Of a DNA stretch of 36,483 bases, positions 21,544 through 29,190 are shown piece after piece. The notes below the pieces were generated by a model. That model had not been told where the DNA came from. It worked only from the letters and a program-made list of their open reading frames with translations, and searched no databases. The stretch is from Candidatus Minthousia equi (GTDB lineage Bacteria > Bacteroidota > Bacteroidia > Bacteroidales > Bacteroidaceae): NCBI GenBank assembly GCA_018065125.1, contig JAGHTY010000118.1, positions 1 to 36,483 on the forward strand, given 5' to 3'. The position numbers and the translations under genes are program-made. Numbering within the stretch: the stretch's first letter is position 1; each line of letters starts with the position of its first letter.

Positions 21544-21564
21544 CACCGCATTTCTAAGAAAACT

Positions 21565-21638
21565 GCTTCAATAGCTCAGTTGGTTAGAGCACCTGACTGT
21601 TAATCAGGGGGTCGTTGGTTCAAGCCCATCTTGAAGCG
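21565..21638 (+). tRNA. tRNA-Asn (GTT), copy 1
   Basis: 74 nt. The acceptor GCTTCAA pairs with TTGAAGC, with G as discriminator. The D stem is GCTC/GAGC. The anticodon stem CCTGA/TCAGG holds the loop CTGTTAA with anticodon GTT. The T arm GTTGG/CCATC has a U-U mismatch at its second pair. CCA is not encoded. Confidence 0.95.
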
Positions 21639-21659
21639 CTAAACAAAAGAAATGCAACT

Positions 21660-21733
21660 GCTTCAATAGCTCAGTTGGTTAGAGCACCTGACTGTTAATC
21701 AGGGGGTCGTTGGTTCAAGCCCATCTTGAAGCG
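21660..21733 (+). tRNA. tRNA-Asn (GTT), copy 2
   Basis: Identical in all 74 nt to the first copy, including the U-U mismatch in the T stem, and separated from it by 21 nt. The two are presumably cut from one transcript. Confidence 0.95.
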
Positions 21734-21734
21734 C

Positions 21735-22348: not shown

Positions 22349-22903
22349 TTACTTCTCAGTAAATGAAGCCTTCTCGCCATTCATTGAGAATGTACCTGCA
22401 AAGGTAAAGTTAAGCAACTTTACTGCATCTGTAATTAACTTATCAACCTCGCTGGCAGGTAAACCAGTAGTTTTATGAGGGGTTGATTCATGCCCTGTAC
22501 AAATGTATTGCTGGCCACTTGTTGCCACCCAATAAGCATTTCTTGATGGACTAGTTACAGTAAGGTCAAACTTGTCCTTGCTTGCCTTGTAGGTATCATA
22601 GTCCTTGCTCTTTGAAGCAGTGCAAACCAACTTTAAGTCAGCAGGAAGCTTGGTAGCAGTATCCTGAATGCTGATCTTGCCACTCTTTGGTGTATAATTA
22701 GTTGTCTTGCCACTCATGTCAGTATAGGTACAGGTAACATCTACCAACTTCAGGAAGTCTTCACTAAACTCAGCCTCTGAAACGAACAGGACATTCTTGA
22801 ACTTTTCAGTAGGAAAATATGGATCTTCCTTTGTCTCGGTACAAGCAGTGAACGACAATGCCAGTACTACCAGCATGCTAAAAACAGAAAAAATCTTTTT
22901 CAT
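22349..22903 (-). CDS. Surface or periplasmic lipoprotein of unknown function
   Basis: 184 aa from the ATG at 22903, chosen over the track start at 22969 because it gives an SPII signal 'MKKIFSVFSMLVVLALSFTAC' (read in parts; Cys21) and because the longer start would precede the -7 box at 22943-22950. The mature part is rich in Lys, Thr and Ser with short beta-type segments ('KLVDVTCTYTDMSGKTTNY', 'FDLTVTSPSRNAYWVATSG'). I recognise no domain. It is divergent from the TPR-AraC regulator at 23075, and a shared 18-bp palindrome lies between them, so it is probably a direct target of that regulator. Confidence 0.8.
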   Translation of the reverse strand: MKKIFSVFSMLVVLALSFTACTETKEDPYFPTEKFKNVLFVSEAEFSEDFLKLVDVTCTYTDMSGKTTNYTPKSGKISIQDTATKLPADLKLVCTASKSKDYDTYKASKDKFDLTVTSPSRNAYWVATSGQQYICTGHESTPHKTTGLPASEVDKLITDAVKLLNFTFAGTFSMNGEKASFTEK

Positions 22904-22942: not shown

Positions 22943-22950
22943 CAAAAGTA
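22943..22950 (-). promoter_or_regulatory. -7 box of the lipoprotein promoter
   Basis: TACTTTTG on the minus strand, with the start near 22939 and a 35-nt leader. Exactly 20 nt upstream is the motif TAGACGTTTTGCAAGGT in place of a normal -33 box. Confidence 0.65.
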
Positions 22951-22969
22951 CTTGGTTTTTACGCTCCAC

Positions 22970-23028
22970 GACCTTGCAAAACGTCTAAATTTGCAGTTAT
23001 TTTGAAAAAATAGACGTTTTGCAAGGTC
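22970..23028. promoter_or_regulatory. 18-bp perfect palindromic operator between divergent genes
   Basis: Arms GACCTTGCAAAACGTCTA (22970-22987) and TAGACGTTTTGCAAGGTC (23011-23028) are exact inverted copies, with a 23-nt spacer. Each arm is 20 nt from a -7-like box on its own side: TACTTTTG toward the lipoprotein and TTATTTTG (23048-23055) toward the regulator. A 17-bp exact copy of one arm lies at 28927-28943 with the same spacing to TAAATTTG. A binding site for the adjacent AraC-type regulator is inferred. Confidence 0.7.
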
Positions 23029-23047
23029 ATTTTCCCATATTTGTGCT

Positions 23048-23055
23048 TTATTTTG
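23048..23055 (+). promoter_or_regulatory. -7-like box for the TPR-AraC regulator
   Basis: TTATTTTG differs from TAnnTTTG at one position, but sits exactly 20 nt downstream of the arm TAGACGTTTTGCAAGGT, like the other two promoters with this motif. The leader to the ATG at 23075 would be about 15 nt. Confidence 0.5.
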
Positions 23056-23074: not shown

Positions 23075-24838
23075 ATGACTAAACGACTCTTATTTCTTCT
23101 CTTGCCATTGATAGGGTTATTTTGCCAATGCAAGGATGAGCACCCCACCCCAGAAGGTGGAAAAGACTATCCTAGCAGGGAAACCTTTACCCTTATCGAC
23201 AACTGCATGAACTATATGAATTCCGACCCGCAGAAGGCACACGTCATGCTCGACTCGCTAAGAGATGCCAAGCTAATGACACCTCAGCGATGCGACTATT
23301 TCCATGCCATAGTAACATACAGTGGCGAGGAAGACCTTGACAGTGCACTGGTGATTTGTAACCGTTTGCTGGATAAAGGAGAGTTTGGCGATGACGCCTA
23401 CCTTGAAGAGGAAATCTGCGTGCTAGCATCAGACATCACCTCAAGCAGCCTTCGCCATGTTGAAACATTGAAATATGCCAACCGCGGCATTGCCATCTGC
23501 CACGGACACGAAAGCATGCACAGCGATGAAGCCACCCTCATGGGACGTATAGGCACAGCACAGCAGGAATTAGGGAAAACTGCCGAAGCACGCGAAACAT
23601 ACGCCAACGCATATAACCTGCTAAAGCAAAACAACAGTTTTGCTGATTTCATCGCACTTATCTCACTGCAAAGAAAACAAGCAAGCCTTTATAATGAAGC
23701 CAAGGATTACGACAAGGTGATTGATATCTGCCAGGATATTCTCTCACAGGTAGAACGCTTTGACAAGGATCCTTCGTTTATTGAGCAACGCCCCGAAACC
23801 ATGCAGAAATCCAGCACCGCCACACACGAATTTGCCGATTTCTACCAGTGCCAGATGTATGGAAAGATAGCACGTGCCTACCGCCTGAAGAATAACCCCG
23901 ACTCGGTAAAGGCATACATCGAGAAATGGAGCCACACACAGGCATCCAGCTCACCTATAAACAAGGTTTCGGTATTGCGCGAACTGCTCTTTGCCGGAAA
24001 AAAGGCTGAATTCAACGATGCAAGGCAGGCAGCTGAGCAATTGTACCAGGAAGATAGCCTTAATACCGAATATGTAGAATACCTTACCCTCATGGCAGAG
24101 GAGGCAGCCAAATCCAACGATATCAAGGCAAGCAATGCCTACCTGAAAAGGGCAGTTGCCATAAGCGACAGCATCCGCCAGCACAACACGGTGCGCGAGC
24201 TAAGCGAACAGCTGGCACTGCACAAGGTGCAAGAGCATCAGCTGGCACACCAGGATGCCGAACACCAGCTAAAGCGCCAGCACCTCACCATCATACTGCT
24301 GTCGGTGCTGCTGGGTATCACGCTCATTGCAGGTATCATTATCGTGACATTGATGCGCAGAAACAGAAAAGAACTGCAAATCATAGAAATGACGCAGCAA
24401 GATCTTAGCGAGTCGAAGGAAGAAATCAGGGAACTGGTGCAGCAACTTGAGGAAACAAAGGCCGAGAAGGTAGTTGTGAACATCAAAACACTCTACGAAC
24501 GCATCGAGAGTGCCATGGCCGAAGAAAAGCTGTATCTTAACCCCGACCTCGACCTGCCAACGCTGGCAACAGCAGTAAACTCCAGTCGCTCGATGATCTC
24601 TTTGTGCATCAACAATGTAACCGGAAAAACCGTACGTCAGTGGATAGCAGAATATCGCCTTGCACAGTTCGTAAAGATGATGAAAGAAAATCCCGATGAA
24701 CTGATCGACGTGCTTGTAATGCGATGCGGATACAAGGAACAATCTACCTTCCGCCGACAATTCAAGAGCGTTTATGGCGTTACGGCAGGAGAATACAAGA
24801 AACAATTGACAAGTCAATTGTCAATGAATAATGAATAA
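23075..24838 (+). CDS. Membrane-bound TPR - transmembrane - AraC-type transcription regulator
   Basis: 587 aa. The signal or lipobox-like N-terminus 'LLPLIGLFCQC' precedes a ~370-residue helical region with TPR-like repeats (for example 'TAQQELGKTAEARETYANAY', 'YNEAKDYDKVIDICQDIL'). One transmembrane helix follows (about 402-427, 'LTIILLSVLLGITLIAGIII'), then a coiled segment 'LVQQLEETKAEK'. A C-terminal AraC HTH spans about 490-587 ('LPTLATAVNSSRSMISLCI', 'VLVMRCGYKEQSTFRRQFK'). Bacteroidetes use this layout to sense envelope or periplasmic cues and act directly on DNA. The gene is divergent from a lipoprotein across an 18-bp palindrome, suggesting autoregulation. The ligand or partner is unknown. 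Confidence 0.88.
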   Translation: MTKRLLFLLLPLIGLFCQCKDEHPTPEGGKDYPSRETFTLIDNCMNYMNSDPQKAHVMLDSLRDAKLMTPQRCDYFHAIVTYSGEEDLDSALVICNRLLDKGEFGDDAYLEEEICVLASDITSSSLRHVETLKYANRGIAICHGHESMHSDEATLMGRIGTAQQELGKTAEARETYANAYNLLKQNNSFADFIALISLQRKQASLYNEAKDYDKVIDICQDILSQVERFDKDPSFIEQRPETMQKSSTATHEFADFYQCQMYGKIARAYRLKNNPDSVKAYIEKWSHTQASSSPINKVSVLRELLFAGKKAEFNDARQAAEQLYQEDSLNTEYVEYLTLMAEEAAKSNDIKASNAYLKRAVAISDSIRQHNTVRELSEQLALHKVQEHQLAHQDAEHQLKRQHLTIILLSVLLGITLIAGIIIVTLMRRNRKELQIIEMTQQDLSESKEEIRELVQQLEETKAEKVVVNIKTLYERIESAMAEEKLYLNPDLDLPTLATAVNSSRSMISLCINNVTGKTVRQWIAEYRLAQFVKMMKENPDELIDVLVMRCGYKEQSTFRRQFKSVYGVTAGEYKKQLTSQLSMNNE

Positions 24839-26240: not shown

Positions 26241-26615
26241 ATGAAAAAAGAAAGAAATTATGTAAGGCAGATAGTTCCATTTCGCGAATATTTCAAGGAA
26301 TTCAAGCGAACACTGCCAAAAGAAGTCCTCGAGAAAATATATAAGGTATTCATCTACATAATGGTAGAACAGGTAATACCTTCACAGTTTTTCAAGAGTA
26401 TCGAAGGAGTAAAGGGGTTGTATGAAATAAGAGTAGAAGAAAGTGGAAACATTTATCGTATATTCTGCTGTATGGACGAAGGAAACCTAGTTGTTCTCTT
26501 CAATGCTTTCCAAAAGAAAACAACGAAAACACCGTCTCAGCATATTAAGCGTGCAACTGCAATTATGAAAGAATATTTTGCCGAAAAGGCTCAACTTAAA
26601 AACAGAAAACAATGA
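26241..26615 (+). CDS. HigB/RelE-superfamily toxin (phage Gp49-like)
   Basis: 124 aa. The C-terminal two thirds match the Gp49/HigB pattern: 'VKGLYEIRVEESGNIYRIFC', 'EGNLVVLFNAFQKKTTKTP' and 'IKRATAIMKEYF'. These toxins are usually ribosome-dependent mRNA interferases neutralised by the downstream antitoxin. The stop overlaps the antitoxin start by 4 nt (ATGA). Toxin-first order is typical of HigBA. The promoter gives an almost leaderless mRNA. Confidence 0.85.
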   Translation: MKKERNYVRQIVPFREYFKEFKRTLPKEVLEKIYKVFIYIMVEQVIPSQFFKSIEGVKGLYEIRVEESGNIYRIFCCMDEGNLVVLFNAFQKKTTKTPSQHIKRATAIMKEYFAEKAQLKNRKQ

Positions 26616-26920
26616 CACAGGAAGAGTTAAAAGCAATAGGATGCACCCCACTGGAAGATCTGATAACCGAGGATTTTGGCGCCTTGGGCACCCCAGAACG
26701 CGAAAACTTTGAATTGGGTTGCGATGCCTTTATTATAGGTGAACGCCTAAAGGCAGAACGTCTGAAAGCAGGACTCACGCAAGAACAACTTGCAATTAAA
26801 ATAGGAACAAAAAAAAGTTTCATCTCACGCGTAGAGAATGGTCATGCCGATATTCAGCTCTCTACTCTTTTCCGCATATTCAATGGCTTAGGAAGAAGGG
26901 TTTCCTTATCAATATTATAA
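26612..26920 (+). CDS. HigA-type XRE-family antitoxin
   Basis: 102 aa. The N-terminal part has 'LGTPERENFELG', a motif shared with the orphan protein at 34111 ('EGTPKREANR'). A C-terminal XRE helix-turn-helix follows: 'LKAGLTQEQLAIKIGTKKSF' and 'ISRVENGHADIQLSTLFRIF'. It should bind the toxin and repress the operon. It overlaps the toxin gene by 4 nt and is followed by a terminator at 26925. Confidence 0.9.
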   Translation: MTQEELKAIGCTPLEDLITEDFGALGTPERENFELGCDAFIIGERLKAERLKAGLTQEQLAIKIGTKKSFISRVENGHADIQLSTLFRIFNGLGRRVSLSIL

Positions 26921-27021: not shown

Positions 27022-28371
27022 CTACTCCCGCTCCCTCCAAACAGGGCGGATAGGAAGGCCACGAGAGCGAATTACCTTCTCAGTTTTCAAGGTACTTAAT
27101 CTAAGTGCCTCTGCATTAACATGATCCCTTTCAATAGGAGTTGTAGCTGTCCAGTAAAGACCAGATTCCCTACTTCCATCAGTTTCGGATGAAAGGGTTT
27201 GTGGCAAGAATACAGAGTTTCCTTCATAACCGCTTACTTTACTCGTTAATATATAACCAGCCACACCGGTACCATTGTAATTATCTGTCCAATTCCAATT
27301 AAGGGATCCTAACAAAGCACCTATTTCAATGTCCGATGGTACATGCCAATTGCCACCCCAGGCAGTGTATGCAGCATCATGATCCAATGGCAAATCTGAA
27401 CTTTGTGGGCAATCCGGGAATCTGATGTCATCTATAAGATACTGAGTCTTTACTTCTGTTTCGCCAAAGCTATAGTAATCGCCAAAATCCTCAGGGCTTG
27501 CGGCACCAAGGTTTCTGTCGGCTATCTTTATACCCAAACCAAAGTCAACAGCCTTTACAGGTTCACTATAAACCATGTCAAGGAATTTGGCATCGTAAAA
27601 TTTGTTTCTTTCAATCTTCATGTTAGCAGCCTTCTTCACTGCCTTCGATCCATCTATCACGTTGTATTCCAATGTTACCCCTTCGTAGTTTCCTGGTGGA
27701 ACGGCAAATGTTATGATGTTTCTGGCACCAATCCTCCTGCTATCAAAATTAAGCACAGAGATAGGTCTGTCTTCATCCACGCCATTTATTCTTTTCGCCT
27801 TTAATACTACGCTGTACAAGTATTTTGTTTGCTCACCCGAAAAGGCAGTGTACCTCACCATGGCACCCACGTTGGTAAACGAAAGACTTGAAACAGTGGT
27901 TCCGCCATTGCTCACGGTAGCGGTGGCCACCATAGGTGCATCCGAAATGTCGCAAGCCACACCGTACCTAAATAACTGTCTTGGCCACGACTTTATCTTG
28001 CCATCGGCAGTAAGGCCCTCCCAAGTGGCAGGATAGTACACCATGTATTCGCCATCGGCAAGGTCTGCCTGATCTGCATCCATCGTGAACTCACCGTTAG
28101 GTTGTCCTGCCTCTGATGAAAGTGTAAAGTAGTACACTACAGAATCATCGTTTTTACTCACAAACTTTATTTTGTCGCCCTCACTCCACAGCACACGGTA
28201 GGTGCCAACCTCGTACGTGGCTCGTGTTTCGGCATTCTCGGTTACTGCCTGCACCTTTACTGGTGCCTTTGGGGTTTCTGCCTCTATCTGCTCTATCGCT
28301 TCTTCGTGCGAGCAGCTTGCCATACCCATGGCCATTGCCAGTGCAGCAATGATAGTATATAAGTTCTTCAT
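27022..28371 (-). CDS. Fimbrillin-like/FISUMP lipoprotein (cassette 1)
   Basis: 449 aa. The SPII signal ends in the lipobox 'MASC' (Cys20). Residues about 45-270 resemble fimbrillin-family domains ('WSEGDKIKFVS', 'LSFTNVGAMVRYTAFSGEQ', a pattern of 'GD.I' near the start and a later 'N...A'). Residues about 275-447 resemble the FISUMP (Fib_succ_major) domain: 'AVDFGLGIKIADRNLGAASP', 'AWGGNWHVPSDIEIGALLG', 'GLYWTAT' and 'RGLPIRPVW'. It is probably exported to the cell surface. It follows a 54-aa peptide gene by 12 nt, and 34840-36327 is a paralogue in the same arrangement. A role in surface structures or binding is inferred. Confidence 0.85.
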   Translation of the reverse strand: MKNLYTIIAALAMAMGMASCSHEEAIEQIEAETPKAPVKVQAVTENAETRATYEVGTYRVLWSEGDKIKFVSKNDDSVVYYFTLSSEAGQPNGEFTMDADQADLADGEYMVYYPATWEGLTADGKIKSWPRQLFRYGVACDISDAPMVATATVSNGGTTVSSLSFTNVGAMVRYTAFSGEQTKYLYSVVLKAKRINGVDEDRPISVLNFDSRRIGARNIITFAVPPGNYEGVTLEYNVIDGSKAVKKAANMKIERNKFYDAKFLDMVYSEPVKAVDFGLGIKIADRNLGAASPEDFGDYYSFGETEVKTQYLIDDIRFPDCPQSSDLPLDHDAAYTAWGGNWHVPSDIEIGALLGSLNWNWTDNYNGTGVAGYILTSKVSGYEGNSVFLPQTLSSETDGSRESGLYWTATTPIERDHVNAEALRLSTLKTEKVIRSRGLPIRPVWRERE

Positions 28372-28383
28372 TTCTTCTTTTTT

Positions 28384-28548
28384 TTAGTTTGTCCAGATAT
28401 CTGTTTGGTTTTCCTCTTGATATGGTTCAGTACTTCCACCACCACTTGTAGCGATGATGTCGGTTACATCTATTTCTATTACATCCACCTTTGGGGTGTT
28501 CCACACTTCTTTTTCTGTGTTGTGTGGGGTTTTGATTTCTTTATTCAT
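28384..28548 (-). CDS. 54-aa peptide upstream of fimbrillin-like lipoprotein (cassette 1), not in ORF track
   Basis: 54 codons from the ATG at 28548 to TAA at 28384, 12 nt before the lipoprotein ATG. The sequence contains 'VWNTPKVDVIEIDVTDIIA', then 'TSGGGSTEPYQ', and ends 'DIWTN'. It has no signal peptide or membrane helix. The partial gene at 36351-36483 keeps the same pattern ('TTPVIEIIELEMADIIATSG'), so the frame is under selection. The acidic body and following Gly/Ser-rich end recall short Bacteroidales peptides with a leader-like C-terminal 'IIA.SG' motif. The function is unknown; a precursor peptide, a chaperone or an accessory subunit of the lipoprotein are possible. Confidence 0.75.
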   Translation of the reverse strand: MNKEIKTPHNTEKEVWNTPKVDVIEIDVTDIIATSGGGSTEPYQEENQTDIWTN

Positions 28549-28890
28549 GTTTATTCTTTTTTAGAAAGGACACATTCCTTTCAATTTCTTATTTCTTTTA
28601 CTTTCTTATTCTTTCTTCTTTTCTACTTTCTTTTTCTTTCCCATGAAGGAAAGATAAAGAAACAAAAAGAATTGTAAATCGCTGTGGGAGGCGAAGCCGA
28701 GGTAAGCAAAGTTCACCTGCTGCACTTCCAGGACTAAAATTTGTTCGTATGTGCTAATTCGCAGAAACTCGTGCTTCGCACTCAAACAACCTGCTCATCT
28801 TAACGCACATCCTTCAAATTTCTTAACGCCCTTCCAGTGAGGCAGGAAACTCGCTGGTTAATGATTATATCTTTTAAACTTTTAAACCTT
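28549..28890 (-). repeat. Dispersed intergenic repeat inside a long 5' leader (module B copy 3 plus pyrimidine-rich end)
   Basis: It runs opposite to the 24963-25200 copy. 28560-28680 is the CTTTCTTT-type end with a GAAAGG...CCTTTC palindrome, and 28707-28850 is module B with arms GCAG/CTGC. It lies between the predicted promoter (28899-28943) and the peptide gene at 28548, so it would be transcribed as a ~345-nt leader. Confidence 0.8.
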
Positions 28891-28898
28891 TATAGATG

Positions 28899-28943
28899 CA
28901 AATTTAAGAAAAATCACCCTCTCAGCACCTTGCAAAACGTCTA
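28899..28943 (-). promoter_or_regulatory. Third copy of the palindrome-arm promoter, for peptide-lipoprotein cassette 1
   Basis: Minus strand TAGACGTTTTGCAAGGT (28943-28927), 20 nt, then TAAATTTG (28906-28899). This is the same motif, spacing and box type as the two promoters of the 22970-23028 palindrome. Only one arm is present here. Confidence 0.6.
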
Positions 28944-28959
28944 TTTTTGCAAATTGCAC

Positions 28960-29190
28960 CTTATTTTTGGATGATTTGCAAATTGTTTCTTTCTTTTCTT
29001 TCGTGCAAACGAAAGATAAGAAACAAAAGAAAGGTTGCCCGCTGCGTCTCCAGAAGCTAAAAAGCACTTTCAATTGCTAAGGCGCAAAAACTCGCTTTGC
29101 TCAAACAGTTTGCGCCTCTTAACGCACTTTCAAGCACTTTTCTTAACGCTTCTTCCGCCAAGGCGGGAGGATTAAACAAGTCAGCGAGTA
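28960..29190 (-). repeat. Dispersed intergenic repeat module C (copy 1)
   Basis: It is nearly identical in inverse orientation to 32575-32725. It includes arms GGCGCAAA/TTTTTGCGCC around CTGTTTGAGCAAAGCGAG, and the shared flanks CGCTGCGTCTCCAGAAGC and CGCCAAGGCGG. No gene is seen. Confidence 0.85.

Follow-up and report, generated by a model that had tools for sequence, protein, structure and literature searches.

Genes and motif copies at the locus

The window (the whole stretch of 36,483 nucleotides that was analysed, from a contig of Candidatus Minthousia equi) carries a gene for a TPR-transmembrane-AraC-type regulator (TPR-TM-AraC) and, divergent from it, a gene for a putative lipoprotein. 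An inverted pair of 17-bp motif copies lies between these genes, and another copy lies upstream of a cassette encoding a short peptide and a fimbrillin-like protein. The features, with coordinates and strand, are as follows.

22349..22903, minus: putative lipoprotein, 184 aa from ATG; related to the lipoprotein downstream of the element in G347, a genome described below
22943..22950, minus: -7 box TACTTTTG of the lipoprotein promoter, 20 nt from arm A
22971..22987, minus: predicted operator arm A, TAGACGTTTTGCAAGGT, exact 17-mer; faces the lipoprotein gene, 20 nt to TACTTTTG
22988..23010, no strand: inner 23 bp between the arms; resembles the inner part of the other operators
23011..23027, plus: predicted operator arm B, exact 17-mer; faces the regulator gene, footprint kept 5' of two orthologues
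23048..23055, plus: -7-like box TTATTTTG of the regulator promoter; the orthologues have TATATTTG at the same 20 nt
23075..24838, plus: TPR-transmembrane-AraC-type regulator, 587 aa, from Pfam and fold
27022..28371, minus: fimbrillin-like lipoprotein, 449 aa, second ORF of the putative third target; weak N-terminal Mfa1-family match
28384..28548, minus: 54-aa peptide ORF, first ORF of the putative third target, about 345 nt 3' of the promoter
28899..28906, minus: -7 box TAAATTTG of the third promoter; perfect box, 20 nt from the arm
28927..28943, minus: putative third operator, proximal arm TAGACGTTTTGCAAGGT, exact 17-mer
28944..28984, minus: putative third operator, inner part and degenerate second arm AATTTGCAAATCATCC; adjoins a dispersed repeat at 28981-29027

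The three listed copies match TAGACGTTTTGCAAGGT with 0 mismatches, and no further match at up to three mismatches was found within the window; shuffles gave a mean of 0.10 such matches and a maximum of 1. The preliminary description had reported an 18-bp perfect palindrome between the lipoprotein and regulator genes, with three 17-mers each 20 nt from a -7 box. Both statements proved correct: the 18-bp arms (22970-22987 and 23011-23028) are perfect inverted complements, and the outward spacer from motif to box is exactly 20 nt in 3/3 arms, ending in TACTTTTG, TTATTTTG, and TAAATTTG. The regulator promoter box, TTATTTTG, is the one departure from TAnnTTTG. A PLSDB search with the intergenic region gave no match.

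Dispersed non-coding repeats flank the third site (28981-29027 upstream and 28708-28892 downstream), and one of the repeats beside it begins near the predicted transcription start. The 54-aa ORF (containing VWNTPKVDVIEIDVTDIIATSGGG) lies directly before the fimbrillin-like gene and has no Pfam match; its product looks like a small secreted or modified peptide. The product of 27022-28371 is similar (E 2e-7) to a fimbrillin-like Lcl_C protein encoded right after the Minthosoma regulator gene, a protein type that is common. A pair of genes for a Gp49-like/RelE-type toxin and an HTH antitoxin (26241-26920) separates the regulator from the fimbrillin cassette. The window also contains two identical tandem tRNA genes (21561-21639 and 21656-21734), read from the sequence as Asn with anticodon GTT.

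The regulator, its orthologues, and co-occurrence with the element

The regulator has an AraC-type HTH domain, matched by PF12833 (HTH_18) at residues 497-577 with 55.3 bits (cut-off 33.6), and this domain is conserved in the orthologues. Other Pfam matches were weak (TPR and DUF6377), and Pfam found no histidine kinase or receiver domain. The N-terminus is hydrophobic, and a hydrophobic stretch at about residues 404-427 is followed by RRNRK (read from the sequence). The charge distribution suggests that the TPR part is periplasmic and the HTH part cytoplasmic. Such an arrangement, with a single membrane span between sensor and HTH, would make the protein a ToxR-like one-component regulator in layout. 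A modest AlphaFold model (pLDDT 72, pTM 0.49, three sequences) consists of a TPR superhelix, a long helix at 350-458, and the HTH domain, and Foldseek with this model returned TPR superhelices, peptide-binding Rap proteins among them. The hydrophobic N-terminus ends in C-x-C (C17, C19) in all three orthologues (window 23075-23131; L022:1253; L024:6001). This is lipobox-like, but Q or R precedes the second Cys; possibly the N-terminus is lipidated or anchored through it. The Minthosoma regulator has a C-terminal tail of tandem DESDLV-type repeats (L024:7800-8010), which is not present in the other two orthologues.

Only two species, both of another genus, yielded close orthologues: G347 (61% identity) and Candidatus Minthosoma caballi (58-59%), the latter placed in Bacteroidaceae by NCBI (its locus L024 (G399) and G400 were taken as one assembly). 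The regulator has no full-length paralogue in its own genome and no homologue at E 1e-30 in five genomes of the same genus. The inverted pair lies directly 5' of the regulator gene in 2/2 close orthologues, as AAGACGTTTTGCAAGCT-N20-TATATTTG with an arm offset of 41 in G347 and as AAGACATTTTGCAAGTT-N20-TATATTTG with an offset of 30 in Minthosoma. The Minthosoma offset is about one helical turn less than the 40-41 found elsewhere, and both of its arms have the same G-to-A change (ACAT). In a second G347 pair (C2:56783/56826), the minus arm lies 19 nt from TATCTTTG, and a lipoprotein gene follows. The encoded lipoprotein is related to the divergent lipoprotein of the window (30% over 162 aa, E 3e-6), and a related lipoprotein carries the element in a second genus at an unlinked locus. 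The G347 regulator gene is followed by genes for a lipoprotein and for C13 (legumain-like) and C11 (clostripain-like) peptidases, the peptidase genes being on the same strand (L121:4783-9000).

Among 399 Bacteroidaceae genomes, the pattern CTTGCAAAACGT-N20-42-ACGTTTTGCAAG occurs in two, the window's own genome (G000) and G347, and these are exactly the genomes with a close orthologue among the same 399. The chance of that coincidence is 1 in 79,401 if genomes are independent, which they are not quite. With Y/R allowed at the variable base, the pair pattern occurs in 2/45 genomes of the orthologues' genus (G347 and G400, both with the regulator gene) and in 1/393 Bacteroidales genomes (G000); the inverted pair was absent from all other Bacteroidaceae and Bacteroidales genomes searched. 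A sequence-only model of arm, spacer, and -7 box was built from eight promoters. It matched these at E 3e-9 to 3e-6, as expected of training sites, whereas its best match in five regulator-free genomes of the same genus was no better than E 0.046. Below-threshold matches in C43 of G000 (E 0.06) and C62 of G347 (E 0.03) have a motif-like core and no inverted pair, and where single arms matched in same-genus genomes that lack the regulator, a partner arm and a -7 box were both absent. Because the element is found only in regulator-carrying genomes, it is very probably the switch of this regulator, and its link to the TPR-AraC gene is supported by the orthologue footprint together with the exact co-occurrence. 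With the regulator present in three species only, few independent gains underlie the co-occurrence, and any gene co-inherited with it would show the same distribution.

Further copies, promoter geometry, and anatomy of the predicted operator

The own genome is a fragmented draft (2.6 Mb, 84% complete, 219 contigs). Beyond the window it contains three more copies at up to two mismatches, C102:11161 (minus), C9:64 (minus), and C9:104 (plus), and on inspection a partner arm, CGTACGTTTTGCAAGTT, was found at C102:11201 (plus). The arm offset is exactly 40 bp in 3/3 inverted pairs of this genome (22971/23011, 64/104, and 11161/11201). The plus arm of C9 is followed by TACCTTTG at 20 nt and that of C102 by TAATTTTG at 19 nt, each then by a gene for a putative secreted lipoprotein; the leaders end in ..SLTGCKDDNEP (C9) and ..SLVGCKDDNIP (C102). 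The C102 product (L014:11306-13207) is PI-PLC-like and matches solved PI-PLC structures (1aod, E 2e-9), with no Pfam recognition of this region at E 0.001. The C9 product is a 641-aa putative lipoprotein for which searches recognised no family. Copies with three mismatches (C1, C30, C53, C69, C93, and C119) were attributed to chance, since a partner arm and a -7 box at 20 nt are both missing. The proposed regulon therefore withstood the genome-wide search set for it in advance, which looked for copies inside repeats or off the 20-nt spacing: the other strong copies fall between genes, and in each pair a -7 box 5' of a lipoprotein gene is found 19-20 nt from one arm.

In intergenic sequence, TAnnTTTG has a background frequency of 0.0014 per position. 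All five gene-proximal arms outside the original finding (C9, C102, C60 and C2 of G347, and Minthosoma) have an exact match to this box 19 or 20 nt away. By arithmetic on the intergenic background, with a choice between two arms allowed, the chance of these five boxes is about 6e-12. Exact boxes occur at 19/20 nt in 7/8 promoters, and the remaining promoter has a single departure.

A TTTG at -33 with TAnnTTTG at -7 is the known primary-sigma arrangement and housekeeping consensus (PMC7366714). The spacing was calibrated on 257 kb of the own genome with 122 intergenic TAnnTTTG boxes. TTTG was found at 19 or 20 nt from the -7 box in 23/122 of them and in 0-4 at any other spacing. The motif promoters have the TAnnTTTG -7 box of sigma-ABfr promoters, and none of them has its other feature, a TTTG -33 box 19-20 nt 5' of the -7 box. 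The motif does contain a TTTG, but this is 26 nt away from the -7 box, or 25 nt with a 19-nt spacer, and so is not a -33 box. The -33 place is filled by the last bases of the motif (AGGT, AGCT, AAGT, AGTT, and AGCG), and the overlap with -33 given in the preliminary description holds for these bases and not for the motif's own TTTG. As in class-II sites, the motif adjoins or overlaps the -33/-35 place at a constant distance. Only the window pair has -7 or -7-like boxes on both sides at exactly 20 nt. The second arm of G347 C2 has a near-box, TAGTTTTT, at 19 nt, and the second arms of C9, C102, G347 C60, and Minthosoma have no box at 19-20 nt. The absence of these boxes indicates that the second arm is probably retained for the operator itself.

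From sequence comparison, the predicted operator unit is a conserved three-part composite of about 57 bp rather than a single 17-bp site. Its two 17-bp arms (consensus nnGACGTTTTGCAAGnT) are inverted and separated by about four helical turns, and between them lies a weaker third site that resembles TTGCAA. The inner 23-24 bp of the six operators, which come from two genera, are alike (z 11.3 when shuffles have equal freedom of orientation), and for cross-genus pairs alone the inner similarity exceeds all 500 shuffles. The 40 bp outside the arms show no similarity (z -0.2 to 1.3). Because the inner part is conserved and the outer flanks are not, the predicted operator is a composite unit and not a copied segment. 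The 17-bp binding site proposed earlier is exact as an arm, but the unit is the inverted pair with its conserved inner sequence. The inner element of C102 is oriented away from the target gene. A direct-repeat reading of the arms (HTCS-like, period 21) did not fit by eye.

Interpretation and relation to known systems

We consider it probable that the element is a ~57-bp operator through which the TPR-TM-AraC regulator performs class-II activation of its own gene and of a small surface-lipoprotein regulon. The two-HTH AraC domain probably binds one 17-bp arm through two neighbouring major grooves, and both arms would be occupied by two or more regulator copies. The edge of the gene-proximal arm would cover the -33 place, ending 19-20 nt from TAnnTTTG. 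Promoters that lack a TTTG -33 box of their own are what one would expect if RNA polymerase were contacted by a bound activator. A signal would be sensed by the presumed periplasmic TPR domain, and the regulator would then turn on its own gene, the divergent lipoprotein, the PI-PLC-like lipoprotein (C102), and the 641-aa lipoprotein (C9), and possibly the peptide-fimbrillin cassette. The earlier claim that the regulator controls itself, a lipoprotein, and a surface cassette is backed by sequence for the first two, and the cassette lies about 345 nt away across a dispersed repeat; the third operator is the least certain member of the predicted regulon. Counted against this explanation are the repeat between the third site and its cassette together with the degenerate arm, the departure of TTATTTTG from the -7 consensus, the orientation of the C102 inner element, the fragmented draft state of the assembly, and the scarcity of inverted pairs at distant homologous loci (see below).

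A regulator that binds the element and represses, or does both (for example by a loop between the arms), so that the regulon is switched off, seems rather unlikely. Inverted pairs are common in repressor operators, and 4/5 complete one-promoter pairs keep a second arm without a perfect -7 box, for which a looping or silencing role is possible. The arm, however, lies 5' of the -7 box in place of the missing -33 box, and an activator fits this better because the promoter alone should be weak. There is a slim chance that another DNA-binding protein, co-inherited in the three species, recognises the element and that the TPR-AraC gene is one of its targets, since few species are involved and co-occurrence cannot separate genes gained together. 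Yet no locus other than the regulator gene has the element in each of the three species, a 17-bp half-site suits an AraC domain, and autoregulation through a neighbouring operator is what is usually seen. A distant homologue also has its own inverted pair.

The fixed distance to the downstream box would suit a motif that served an alternative (ECF-type) sigma factor as the upstream part of its promoters, but that box is the housekeeping TAnnTTTG (PMC7366714), and the 17-bp motif occurs in inverted pairs at a fixed offset, with several second arms lacking a box-like sequence at 19-20 nt; we regard this origin as very improbable. Even harder to credit is an origin of the copies as fragments of a dispersed repeat or mobile element with no regulatory meaning. 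Dispersed repeats are numerous in the window and two of them flank the third site, but the motif belongs to none of the window's repeat families and the outer flanks are unrelated (z about 0-1). The pair kept 5' of orthologues in another genus already contradicts this reading.

AraC-type hybrid two-component systems (HTCS) of Bacteroides have half-sites of 12-16 bp, and their operator is a direct repeat with a long spacer (PMC3878776). The regulator described here resembles HTCS as a predicted membrane sensor with a periplasmic domain, a C-terminal AraC-type HTH, and a local regulon of secreted proteins (PMC3878776). It differs in having no kinase or receiver domain, in strong arms that are inverted with a 40/41/30-bp offset, and in targets that are lipoproteins, with no SusC/SusD gene seen adjoining them. 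SusR-like regulators of Bacteroides are membrane activators with a periplasmic sensor and a cytoplasmic DNA-binding domain (PMC3878776), and the layout predicted here would be similar. By description, SusR-like regulators are set apart by the AraC-type C-terminal domain (PF12833) and TPR-superhelix sensor found here, and their direct-repeat operator contrasts with the inverted pair.

AraC of E. coli is soluble and occupies about 17 bp per domain; its operators have several half-sites, one of them beside the promoter, and its activating half-sites are direct repeats. The present system is similar in having about 17 bp per AraC domain and more than one half-site per operator, one promoter-proximal. 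Unlike in E. coli, the two strong arms form an inverted pair and the weaker inner copy is oriented like one of them; homology to E. coli AraC is confined to the HTH domain.

More distant homologues were also compared. At a similar place, a homologue in G294 (about 26% identity, third genus) has a perfect 16-bp inverted pair of another sequence; it lies 24 nt from TAATTTTG, and 0/100 shuffles were as good. Upstream of another homologue (G109 C27, L131), by about 70-250 nt, are a 15-bp inverted pair, ATGCACTCATTTGGT-CCCTGT-ACCAAATGAGTGCAT, and a third copy, CCCAAATGCGTGCATAC, nearer the promoter (by eye); these repeats are likely the operator for that TPR-AraC gene. Of six more distant homologous loci scored, one has an inverted pair within 200 nt that exceeds shuffles; the G109 C27 pair lies slightly further upstream, and four other loci have no such pair within 200 nt. 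A general rule that each TPR-AraC gene has its own inverted pair beside it is possible. More tentatively, and with considerable doubt, these regulators may form a rare membrane-anchored TPR-AraC class with whole-turn inverted-pair operators (30 or 40 bp) and a palindrome particular to each member, in which the TPR superhelix, whose fold also occurs in peptide-binding Rap proteins, would sense some peptide or surface protein that the regulon itself produces. Inverted pairs at whole helical turns would contrast with the direct repeats reported for Bacteroides membrane regulators.

In a limited set of searched papers, no TPR-TM-AraC regulator of Bacteroidota had a described DNA site. As predicted here, the system is a new regulon whose operator layout is unusual for membrane AraC regulators of this phylum. 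The operator, regulator, promoter geometry, and short target list were obtained from sequence alone and are consistent across genera. They provide a directly testable surface-lipoprotein regulon in gut Bacteroidaceae and a template for the sites of other membrane AraC regulators, namely an arm edge 19-20 nt from the -7 box with no -33 box.
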